Positions 10,454 through 14,137 of a stretch of DNA of 32,045 nucleotides are shown in pieces; position 1 is the stretch's first letter; each line of letters begins with the position of its first letter. Under the pieces are notes generated by a model. It was not told where the DNA came from. It saw nothing but the letters and a program-made list of their open reading frames with translations, and ran no database searches. The translations under genes were made by a program, and so were the position numbers. Location of the stretch: NCBI GenBank assembly GCA_023663085.1, contig JAMPIB010000001.1, positions 1-32,045 on the forward strand. The letters are read 5' to 3'. Origin of the DNA: Ruminococcus sp. GTDB taxonomy: Bacteria > Bacillota > Clostridia > Lachnospirales > Lachnospiraceae.

Positions 10454-10867
10454 CGCAACCGGCTGGTCGGATTACGAAAAGCCAATAATCTTTCACAGGA
10501 GGCGCTGGCGGAGAAATTAGGTATCAGCAGACAGGCTGTCAGCAAATGGGAACGTGCGGAGGCATCTCCGGATACGGATCATCTGGATTTCCCGCTGGGA
10601 CTGCTGGCGTTTATCGCTTATATCGCACTGGGGTGCATGTATGGCCTCTGGCTTACGGTCTGGATCGTCTTTTTATTAGTTCCTGTTATCAGAAGTGCCG
10701 TCCGGGCTATCCGTAAGAGAAAGGCCTCCAGTTTTGAGTATCCGGTACTGGTATTGTTTGTGTTTCTTCTGGCGGGGTTTGCCAGAGGACTCTGGCATCC
10801 GGCATGGGTGCTGTTTTTGACGATTCCGCTCTATTATGAGATGGTGAAGTTTTTCCGTGGGAGATAA
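10454..10867 (+). pseudogene. Remnant of an XRE-family regulator with C-terminal membrane domain
   Basis: From 10469 the frame reads GLRKANNLSQEALAEKLGIS then RQAVSKWERAEASPDTD, a textbook XRE helix-turn-helix. It then continues without a break into hydrophobic sequence (PLGLLAFIAYIALG, WLTVWIVFLLVPVI, LVLFVFLLAGFARG) to a TAA at 10867. The frame is closed upstream by TAG at 10451 and has no ATG, GTG or TTG before 10637, so the HTH cannot be translated from a standard start. The linker that normally follows the HTH (the NLIALAKLY-type helix and the region after it) is missing, as if deleted. The last codons run into the queT-like fragment. An ATG at 10637 would only yield the membrane piece. 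I regard it as a decayed gene. Confidence 0.78.
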
Positions 10868-10936
10868 TTTCCCCGATACCTATGGTCAGCGCATGATATC
10901 CGTAGCAGTATATTACAGATGCGCCATCGATCAAAA
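10861..10936 (-). pseudogene. 76-bp fragment of a second queT-like gene
   Basis: Bases 10861-10936 align without gaps to 13656-13731 inside the intact queT gene, with about six mismatches. On the minus strand the fragment encodes LIDGASVIYCYGYHALTIGI then GEIIS, against the same segment with Y and V in the intact copy, so most changes are silent. Only this C-terminal portion is present and both ends break off sharply. The left end abuts the stop of the XRE remnant. It is a relic of a paralogous or transferred gene. Confidence 0.82.
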
Positions 10937-10980
10937 TCCCGGGTAAATGCAGTGATTCCATGGCTATTTCAGCCTGTATG

Positions 10981-11021: not shown

Positions 11022-11192
11022 ATGCTTGTAAGGGAAGATAAGGCATGGGATTATGCTGTAGGGATGATAAAGGTGGACGGTCTTGAGCCTACGCCGGAAA
11101 TGAAGAAGCTGATCGAACGAGAAAAGCGCGGTGAGATTACCATGGAACAGGTAAGGGAGGCTTTAGACCAGAGATACAAGATGAAGCAGTAA
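11022..11192 (+). CDS. VbhA-family antitoxin of the Fic toxin
   Basis: This small protein (56 residues) directly precedes a Fic gene. Its sequence follows the VbhA pattern: helix WDYAVGMIKVDGLEPTPEMK, then LIEREKRGEITMEQVREALD and a basic end. Such antitoxins hold class I Fic proteins inactive by inserting a (S/T)xxxE(G/N) helix that blocks productive ATP binding. Here the aligned segment is Met15-Ile-Lys-Val-Asp19-Gly20, so the Ser/Thr is Met and the Glu is Asp; Gly and the GLEP that follows are kept. AAAGGAGAG is about 8 bases upstream of the ATG. An upstream in-frame codon (10980) would add 14 residues without a ribosome site, so I reject it. The gap to fic is 12 bases. Confidence 0.85.
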   Translation: MLVREDKAWDYAVGMIKVDGLEPTPEMKKLIEREKRGEITMEQVREALDQRYKMKQ

Positions 11193-11204
11193 GGGGGATT
11201 GCTT

Positions 11205-11999
11205 ATGCGTGACCCATATTTTTATCCGGATACAGAGATACTGAAAAACCAGCTTGGCATCATGGATGACAAAAAACTCCGGGAGGCAGAGGCGGACTAT
11301 GCATCCTTGAACCTTGCGGAGCTTGCAAGGGATGATACCGTTAAGGTGTTTGACTTTGCCACCCTCTGCCAGATGCATTACAGGATTTTTCGGGATATTT
11401 ATGAGTGGGCTGGAAAGCCGCGTATTGTAAATATTGAAAAATCGGAGGAAGCCTTGAATGGTATCTCTGTGGAATATTCGGATGTATTTGACATAGAAAG
11501 GGATGCGAGGGCTGTCCTTACGGACATGAACCTTTATGGATGGAGAAACGCATCTATGGAAGAAGCAGCCAGAAGTTTTTCAGATTTTATGGCGCGGCTC
11601 TGGAAAGCACACCCCTTCCGGGAGGGGAATACAAGGACGATTGTCACGTTCTGCGCCATGTTTATAGAAGAACAGGGTATTTATATTGATAGTGAACTGT
11701 TCAAGGACAATGCAAAGTATATGAGGGATGCTCTGGTGGCGGCAAGCGCTGTTTTTTCAGACCTCGGCGACAGGCGGAAACCTGAATACCTGTACCAGAT
11801 CGTGGAGGATGCGATGGGAAAGGGAAAAGAGATAAAAGAGGATGCAGTTCGCAGGATAAGGGAATCCAGTTTTGCGGCAGGTGAAGAACAGGTGCGGAAG
11901 GTCATCTTCTGGGACAGAAGAGAAAGGAGAGTCCATAGTGCGGAAGAGATACAGTGGTTTTTGAAAGAGAAGAAAAGAGAAGCCCCCGACGAACTTTAA
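11205..11999 (+). CDS. fic: Fic-domain AMP-transferase toxin
   Basis: The 264-residue protein has the catalytic loop HPFREGNTRT at residues 136-145, matching the HPFx(D/E)GN(G/K)R core including catalytic His136, acidic Glu140 and Arg144. The family's upstream segments are present too: HYRIFRDIYEWAGKPRIVNI (59-78), with the flap region just after it, and the helix SFSDFMARLWKA. The fold transfers AMP from ATP to a target hydroxyl, and VbhT-type relatives act on DNA gyrase and topoisomerase IV; the target here is inference. The C-terminal 70 residues are charged and helical. I place the start at the ATG at 11205, since AAGGGGGA (11191-11198) is six bases ahead; a TTG six bases upstream is in frame. 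It forms a two-gene toxin-antitoxin module with 11022-11192. Confidence 0.92.
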   Translation: MRDPYFYPDTEILKNQLGIMDDKKLREAEADYASLNLAELARDDTVKVFDFATLCQMHYRIFRDIYEWAGKPRIVNIEKSEEALNGISVEYSDVFDIERDARAVLTDMNLYGWRNASMEEAARSFSDFMARLWKAHPFREGNTRTIVTFCAMFIEEQGIYIDSELFKDNAKYMRDALVAASAVFSDLGDRRKPEYLYQIVEDAMGKGKEIKEDAVRRIRESSFAAGEEQVRKVIFWDRRERRVHSAEEIQWFLKEKKREAPDEL

Positions 12000-12015: not shown

Positions 12016-13407
12016 TTATTGTAACAAGGCCAAAATGTCTTCCCGACGGTTTGTCTGTGCCAGCATGGACTGTCCCATCTGCGCCAGAATATTATTTTGT
12101 GAGTATAGGATCATTTCATCCGCGATATCCAGATCACGAATCCTTGTTTCTGCGGCCTGCATGTTTTCAACGATATTTTCATCTATCGCCATTCCGTGTT
12201 CCAGACGATTCTGCTGTGCACCGAATTGGATCTGGTAACGGCTGACAGTTTCAATTGCATCTTTAATTTGATTAATCGCATTTCCTGCATTGTCATGGTT
12301 AGAAACGTTCAATGAGCCTTTAGATAAACCCAGCCCATTTGCCGTTGCATCTACAAGCGTAAGAAACATACCGTTTCCGGAATCTGCCCCCATTTGAATC
12401 CAAAGACTATCATCATCGTATATTGATGAGCCGCCAGAAGAAAGCGGCCCTTTCAGATACTCATAAGTATAGCCGGAATCTGAATAGTGGCCGGAAGTGC
12501 CCGGTGCGGTATACAAACTTCCCGTAGCATAAGAATGGCTGGGGTGAGGCTGCAGACCGATCTCTTTTTTACCGGAAGGAGATGTGTTCACAACCAGATA
12601 TAACCGACCATCCCAGTTAGCGGGAGGCGACTGGATATGCCATGTTTCATTCGGATTTAAACTGGAGGAATCCGAACGTAAAAGATAATAAATATAACCG
12701 TTGGCATCTGTTTTTAAATCGCTCAACCGCAGACTGTTATAAGCGGTTTTATAAATATTGCCATGCGTTGCATCTATCGGATCGCCGTTTTGATTTAAGA
12801 TACTAACTATCTGATCCTCTATCCACATAGTATCCGAATCTTTCAGCCGCAGTCCTGTCAAATAAAATAACTCTCCCGGTTTATAGGTGGTGCCATCCGA
12901 GGTGATATCGACATTTGGTCTGGTGCTATGGTAGGAAAAAGTAGATTTTTGCGTATATTCTTCTATCGTCAAATCTCCGCTTAACGCACCTGATAATGTC
13001 ACCGACTTTACACCTTTTCCACGCAGCGGATAAATTTTTTCGTTAAATGTCGTTGTGTTGGCAATCCGGTCAATTTCTTCAAACAGGGCATCTATCTCGC
13101 TTTGGATCGCGGACCGATCTTCGGCATTGTTGGTATCGTTTGCCGCCTGTACGGAAAGCTCGTTCATCCGTTGTAGGATGGCATGTGTCTCATTAAGAGC
13201 GCCATCCGCAACCTGACAGAGGGAAATCCCATCCTGAATATTTCTTGCGCCCTGCTGTAAGCCGCGAATTTGTCTGCGCATTTTTTCAGAGATGGACAGA
13301 CCGGATGCGTCGTCTGCTGCGCGGTTTATCCGGTAGCCGCTCGATAGTTTTTCAGAAGACTTTGCTATATTTCCTGTTATCATCCCGAATTGGCGATCAA
13401 TGTTCAT
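12016..13407 (-). CDS. Flagellin, cut off from its true N-terminus by a nonsense codon
   Basis: The 463 residues from the internal ATG contain the conserved flagellin ends. N-terminal D0/D1: KLSSGYRINRAADDASGLSI, KMRRQIRGLQQGARNIQDGI and MNELSVQAANDTNNAEDRSA. C-terminal: NIVENMQAAETRIRDLDIAD and NILAQMGQSMLAQTN. The middle (about 145-365) is a long, non-conserved surface domain rich in Ser, Gly, Tyr and Asp. The homology continues upstream of this ATG as HNLSA, preceded by an in-frame TAA and then ATG GCG ATA TCT ATA (13440-13426), so the ancestral start was at 13440. The ATG at 13407 has no Shine-Dalgarno sequence. No other flagellar gene is nearby. Either it is a pseudogene or translation reinitiates at 13407, giving a flagellin short by 11 residues in the filament-core helix. 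Confidence 0.88.
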   Translation of the reverse strand: MNIDRQFGMITGNIAKSSEKLSSGYRINRAADDASGLSISEKMRRQIRGLQQGARNIQDGISLCQVADGALNETHAILQRMNELSVQAANDTNNAEDRSAIQSEIDALFEEIDRIANTTTFNEKIYPLRGKGVKSVTLSGALSGDLTIEEYTQKSTFSYHSTRPNVDITSDGTTYKPGELFYLTGLRLKDSDTMWIEDQIVSILNQNGDPIDATHGNIYKTAYNSLRLSDLKTDANGYIYYLLRSDSSSLNPNETWHIQSPPANWDGRLYLVVNTSPSGKKEIGLQPHPSHSYATGSLYTAPGTSGHYSDSGYTYEYLKGPLSSGGSSIYDDDSLWIQMGADSGNGMFLTLVDATANGLGLSKGSLNVSNHDNAGNAINQIKDAIETVSRYQIQFGAQQNRLEHGMAIDENIVENMQAAETRIRDLDIADEMILYSQNNILAQMGQSMLAQTNRREDILALLQ

Positions 13408-13422
13408 TGCGGATAAGTTGTG

Positions 13423-13440
13423 TTATATAGATATCGCCAT
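13423..13440 (-). other. Original flagellin start region and the TAA that interrupts it
   Basis: Read on the minus strand from 13440, the codons are M A I S I, then TAA (13425-13423), then H N L S A M. Clostridial flagellins usually read QHNLxAMN here, so TAA stands where CAA (Gln) is expected, a single C-to-T change. A GGAAGG lies about 13 bases upstream of the ATG at 13440. Confidence 0.82.
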
Positions 13441-13576
13441 TGCCTTCATCACACCTTCCGTATTTTCCCATATTTCAATAAATATATCGGATGAAAAGGG
13501 AAAAATAATAATATTTCACGAAACATTGCAAGCTTTGATAAAAGGATATTTGAGCCTATTGTTTTGATACCATATA

Positions 13577-14137
13577 TCACACGATATTTCGCCGGAAAAT
13601 CCTATCCGCATATTTTTCCAAAGAAAATAAGAGGATCATACCCAGAACACCGCAGGAAATAATTTCTCCGATGCCTACGGTCAGCGCATAATATCCGTAG
13701 CAGTATATTACGGATGCGCCATCGATCAAAAGACCGTATCCATAGATCAGAACCAGAGGAACGATGAGGATATTGGCAAGGATGGGAGTAAGCGGTGCGC
13801 ACCATTTCCATTTCCTGAGCGCGTAAGTGCCGAGCGCGCCGATCAGGGTGGCCAGACTGCCGAAAATAATATCGGGTACGATACAGCCTGTCAGGATGTT
13901 GCTGAGCAGACAGCCGATAAAAAGGCCGGGTATCGCCGCCGGGGTAAAGTAAGGCAGAATGGTGAGTGCTTCGGAAATACGTACCTGTATGACATGATTG
14001 GCAAGTCCGAACGCATTGGCAATAAGGGTGAGTACAACATAGAGTGCGGCGATCATGGCCGCCTGTACCATAGTGGTAAGTGAGATGGGTGAGGCAAACC
14101 CTGTAGATGGCGCCTCATGATAAGATGGATTTTTCAT
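13577..14137 (-). CDS. queT: QueT-family queuosine-precursor ECF transporter substrate-binding subunit
   Basis: The 186-residue protein is an S-component of an energy-coupling factor transporter, with about five or six membrane segments (MVQAAMIAALYVVLTLIANA, IPGLFIGCLLSNILTG, PLVLIYGYGLLI, ILLFSLEKYA). The conserved QueT core VRISEALTILPYFTPAAIPG lies at about 52-71. It should bind a 7-deazaguanine precursor such as preQ1 and use shared EcfA/EcfT components encoded elsewhere. The start has AAGGAG 8 bases upstream, and that ribosome site is part of a preQ1-like pseudoknot leader, which supports both the start and the substrate. A fragment of a second such gene lies at 10861-10936. Confidence 0.9.
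   Translation of the reverse strand: MKNPSYHEAPSTGFASPISLTTMVQAAMIAALYVVLTLIANAFGLANHVIQVRISEALTILPYFTPAAIPGLFIGCLLSNILTGCIVPDIIFGSLATLIGALGTYALRKWKWCAPLTPILANILIVPLVLIYGYGLLIDGASVIYCYGYYALTVGIGEIISCGVLGMILLFSLEKYADRIFRRNIV

Follow-up and report, generated by a model that had tools for sequence, protein, structure and literature searches.

The window, that is, the whole 32,045-nucleotide stretch analysed here, contains a flagellin gene on the minus strand that is interrupted close to its 5′ end by an in-frame stop codon. The features of the gene and of its upstream region are:

12016..13407, minus strand: part of the flagellin gene that stays open, 463 aa counted from ATG 13407, with both terminal flagellin domains and an uncommon middle domain
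13408..13449, minus strand: interrupted flagellin 5′ end, starting at ATG 13449 or ATG 13440 and reading M-K-A-M-A-I-S-I-stop-H-N-L-S-A
13425-13423, minus strand: in-frame TAA, codon 6 from ATG 13440 and codon 9 from ATG 13449
13454..13459, minus strand: Shine-Dalgarno-like GGAAGG preceding ATG 13449, duplex energy −7.0 kcal/mol
13490-13483, minus strand: sigma-28-like −10, CCGATATA, upstream of the interrupted gene

The interrupted 5′ end and the open body

Read on the minus strand from 13449, the DNA runs ATG AAG GCA ATG GCG ATA TCT ATA TAA CAC AAC TTA TCC GCA ATG AAC. This reading, together with the frame of the 463-residue body, upholds the claim of the first-pass annotation that a TAA interrupts the gene at codon 6. 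The predicted duplex with the anti-Shine-Dalgarno sequence has an energy of −7.0 kcal/mol before 13449 and −4.3 before 13440 (18-nt stretch), the mean at 1000 random places in the window being −2.7 kcal/mol. Before ATG 13407, as that annotation had also stated, there is no ribosome site (+1.9 kcal/mol). The gene thus has no ribosome site from which its whole N-terminus could be translated: the TAA at 13425 closes the frame that has the site, and 13407 lacks one. The same annotation put the loss at the first 11 residues, a figure that holds when counted from 13440; against 9hpz, the best-scoring PDB flagellin for the window protein, nine are missing. Measured by the consensus TAAA-N15-CCGATAT given for Eubacterium/Roseburia flagellin promoters in the available text of PMC3720852, the −35 is poor, with no good match found at the usual spacing from the sigma-28-like −10. 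We do not claim promoter decay, as a similar CTTATT also stands ahead of the −10 of an intact flagellin gene on contig C18 of the same genome.

Beyond the stop, the gene looks like a full flagellin. The 463-aa frame matches Flagellin_N over profile positions 18-130 of 139 (136.4 bits; curated cut-off 26.6) and Flagellin_C over positions 2-86 of 86 (56.1 bits; curated cut-off 23), and a whole-genome profile search that reads through stops matches the gene to Flagellin_N from position 1, with "1 TAA" inside. All 463 codons are open, in agreement with the earlier statement that more than 460 codons after 13407 are free of further stops. The middle domain, used as a 258-residue query, matched just partially, towards its C-terminal side, in 4 of 396 other genomes sampled from the family; G035, the genome of the nearest homologue described below, had no match to it in that sample. 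We also considered, and rejected, gene conversion involving the genome's other flagellin genes: the best DNA matches were 81% over 54 bases and 72% over 104 bases, with no near-identical tract. Rfam gave no match within the window at gathering scores.

Homologues, the stop column and the age of the lesion

Among the fetched loci, the nearest homologue is G035:C23, a 472-codon frame with 44.6% identity over 469 columns and one of two adjoining flagellin genes; four further homologues (L089, L018, L024 and L020) align over most of the length at 35-40%. G035:C23 differs from the window flagellin in having no stop, other neighbours and a Thr at the stop column, but the HNLSAMN that directly follows the stop is identical in the two, with five of the seven codons differing synonymously. 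Since HNLSA would be untranslated from 13407 and yet is conserved, it appears to have been under protein-level selection until recently, which suggests that translation still began upstream not long ago. The stretch ahead of the stop (M-A-I-S-I) tells us less: only the last of its five codons agrees with G035:C23, though its pattern is close to MAMSIT and MGMSII, with which the flagellins of two other congeners (L015 and L013) begin.

We aligned 62 other flagellin N-termini on the downstream motif (HN or TN, x-x-A-x-N) and the LSSG anchor. The residue at the stop column is Q in 29, K in 26, R in 3, T in 2, I in 1 and A in 1; with a looser pattern applied to all fetched flagellins (69 others) it is Q in 34, K in 27, R in 3, T in 2 and I, N and A in 1 each. 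The sample is uneven, having been picked by similarity to the window protein and supplemented with hand-picked long flagellins; one of the 62 is from another genus, and the count leaves out L039 (Ornithinibacillus), five sequences without the HN/TN pattern (a single gene accounting for two of them) and flagellins in which the LSSG-anchor motif is absent. The first-pass annotation had regarded Gln as conserved at this codon and the stop as a C-to-T change of CAA. The former does not hold, as Q occupies about half of either count, and the latter cannot be singled out, because the column is mostly Q or K and the nearest homologue has T. The alignment thus places the interruption in a homologous codon, though not in a conserved Gln, and the codon that preceded the stop cannot be told.

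The stop itself is rare. The 76 other genomes of the genus (one genome per species) yielded 454 Flagellin_N matches (150 + 149 + 155), and among those listed only two carry stops, neither at the window site: a TGA that precedes the natural start in a short class (G009:C87) and a TAA at a different position, where a 6.9-kb contig ends (G031:C47). No stop at the window site was seen in the other listed flagellins or in the other N-termini compared. Among the matches listed, the lesion is therefore absent from the homologues, as in a recent pseudogene.

The lesion had been described as young, and it does look young, with HNLSAMN kept and no second lesion in 463 codons. Taking 3.5% of random substitutions to make a stop, the latter bounds the divergence since the lesion at less than about 6.1% from stops only, or 1.6% with one indel per ten substitutions; these are rough figures that assume a transition weight of 3 and neutral rates, and they hold only if the body is not now under selection. 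Compared with G035:C23, the first 125 aligned codons are saturated at synonymous sites and differ at 17% of nonsynonymous sites; dN/dS after the lesion was discarded as useless owing to this saturation.

The insertion site and the other flagellins of the genome

The flagellin gene lies beside queT and is followed by genes and fragments on both strands:

13577..14137, minus strand: queT, intact, the conserved neighbour
11199..11999, plus strand: Fic-domain (VbhT-like) protein gene, convergent with the flagellin gene
11022..11189, plus strand: VbhA-type antitoxin, 56 aa, pairing with the Fic gene
10855..10941, minus strand: stranded queT fragment of 87 bases, a direct repeat of 13650-13736 (89% identical)
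10454..10864, plus strand: remnant of a helix-turn-helix/membrane gene, 137 codons, with no start and an internal part missing

We compared 15 queT regions in 15 other genomes with a homology threshold of E 1e-8. The relatives broadly keep the order prs, queT, followed by yczE-, UDG-, HAD- and 5980-type genes, with gains and losses. At this threshold neither a flagellin nor a Fic gene was found beside queT in 14 of them, the contig of the fifteenth (L074) ending just after queT. In the window, the flagellin, Fic and VbhA genes, the queT piece and the helix-turn-helix remnant together fill the space from queT to the yczE-like gene. Of the five relatives for which this gap was listed, three have a helix-turn-helix gene of 247-283 codons next to queT (domain scan on one). 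The position of the flagellin gene is thus off the order of the relatives, and by its context it is an accessory copy outside the flagellar loci. The queT fragment is closer to the intact window copy (92% over 77 bases) than to the next best relatives (75-81%), which suggests that the flagellin arrived with, or next to, a rearrangement of the lineage's own queT, the order of events being inferred.

Lying beyond the Fic-flagellin segment and about 11% off the intact gene, the queT fragment looks like a trace left by an insertion or duplication. Fic matches at E 1e-10 occur in 34 of the 77 genomes of the genus, including distant Fic proteins and the source genome itself; relatives of 74-80% are present in G019, G012 and G035.

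A search of the source genome for other flagellins and flagellar genes, as had been proposed in the first-pass annotation, gave eight Flagellin_N matches, with a stop only in the window gene. Among the remaining seven, five have the look of ordinary flagellins, with no stop in the Flagellin_N domain:

C22:59707: ordinary flagellin, 467 aa
C18: ordinary flagellin, 390 aa
C36: ordinary flagellin, 387 aa, of a different type with an MRINYN start
C22:677: ordinary flagellin, 313 aa
C8: ordinary flagellin, frame running to the contig edge

The assembly also has matches to FlhA and FliG, to the FliA sigma factor, FliS and FlgL over cut-off, and to FliD, FliW and FlgK below the NCBIfam cut-offs (FlgK partial, cut by the stretch). 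Of the possibilities raised earlier, a silent variant in a multi-flagellin genome is thus supported, whereas a recent loss of motility is unlikely, because the assembly has the five ordinary flagellins as well as those genes for export, motor, cap and regulation that were tested. Judging from this gene content, motility is probably kept.

A short flagellin-like class, with an N-terminus several residues later than the ordinary one, was seen at L093:7074-7850 (source-genome gene C22:129451) and at L132-L140; members appear in many congeners, with frames mostly of 258-307 codons. They have 16-19 residues before LSSG (five measured, starts set by eye; about 24 in L134 and L135), compared with 20 in the product of a restart at 13407 and 29 in an ordinary flagellin of the source genome. 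The window gene, with 463 codons after 13407 and homologous codons kept upstream, was rejected as a member of this class.

Beside csrA and the intact flagellin C22:59707, at L092:10562-11375, lies a tyrosine-recombinase gene (PF00589) flanked by 33-nt inverted repeats (94%, 748 nt apart). Comparable repeat pairs (24-38 nt, 697-804 nt apart) accompany a homologue of the recombinase in 10 of the 12 other congeners fetched (loci L153-L164), and in all ten, as in the source genome, it points away from csrA. The arrangement suggests a self-inverting switch that is widespread at a flagellin operon, but with the recombinase in one orientation throughout, inversion itself is not shown; we found no literature on an invertible flagellin/tyrosine recombinase locus in Lachnospiraceae. 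A second flagellin-csrA-recombinase locus, on contig C8 (L096:1-2100), is 72.8% identical to the C22 locus over 1529 nt, and the repeat scan gave no matching repeat pair there.

The interrupted gene as a probably silenced accessory flagellin

The probable explanation, in our judgement, is that a young nonsense mutation silenced a dispensable accessory flagellin in the inserted segment, with motility probably kept. Through most of its history the gene would have been translated with ATG 13449 or 13440 as its start, until an in-frame TAA arose lately a few codons in. Ribosomes loading at the ribosome site would now terminate after 8 (or 5) residues, so that little or no flagellin would come from this gene; as the other flagellin genes and the machinery remain, the lesion would be tolerated. 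The silence, youth and dispensability of the gene are read here from sequence features, and three observations count against the reading: the coding body is intact, as would also be expected were a restart product in use; the nearest homologue stands at only 44.6%, which gives no direct view of the gene before its lesion; and the sigma-28-like −10 is still present.

The whole case hangs on a single codon in a draft of 95 contigs that is 90.7% complete, and the TAA might have arisen as an error in sequencing or assembly, or be a minority allele taken into the draft consensus. We consider this unlikely, as the codon lies inside a contig of 194,832 bases, the rest of the gene shows no other lesion and stops are nearly absent among the listed members of the 454 other matches. 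Also rather unlikely is a restart at ATG 13407, which would give a low level of flagellin minus its first nine to eleven residues. The start is only fifteen bases past the stop, the body is open for 463 codons, and a natural short class with a comparable N-terminus (16-19 residues before LSSG in five measured, against 20 in the restart product) exists in the genus; but that class is a different, shorter family, there is no ribosome site before 13407 and the codons between the stop and 13407 still spell family sequence, and therefore 13407 has not long been the start. A related scheme, in which the stop is kept and the few ribosomes that restart at 13407 supply a trickle of N-terminally short flagellin, exported and serving outside the flagellum rather than in a filament, strikes us as very improbable. 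We give hardly any credence to the upstream short frame having been kept as a regulatory leader for the flagellin gene: the stop does have a ribosome site and starts ahead of it, but the frame is that of the flagellin, it is homologous to the family's own N-terminus and no other listed flagellin has a stop at the window site.

The interrupted gene comes closest to bacterial flagellins (PF00669/PF00700) of the Eubacterium/Roseburia type, with both terminal domains, a sigma-28-like −10 and several copies per genome. Its first residues, too, are of the MVVQHNLTAM kind given for that type in PMC3720852; unlike those flagellins, the window gene has a TAA just before the conserved HN, an uncommon middle domain and a place outside motility loci. 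An extra, non-functional flagellin gene is described from Shewanella oneidensis, which is motile and in which, according to PMC3120886, only two of the three annotated flagellins encode functional filament subunits; that was judged there by experiment. Judged by titles and the beginnings of abstracts, the literature yielded no stop-carrying flagellin like the present one. A gene catalogue would list a shortened flagellin starting at 13407 and so miss the break. An inserted accessory flagellin has apparently been caught here just after its inactivation while others persist, which bears on the turnover of flagellin repertoires.
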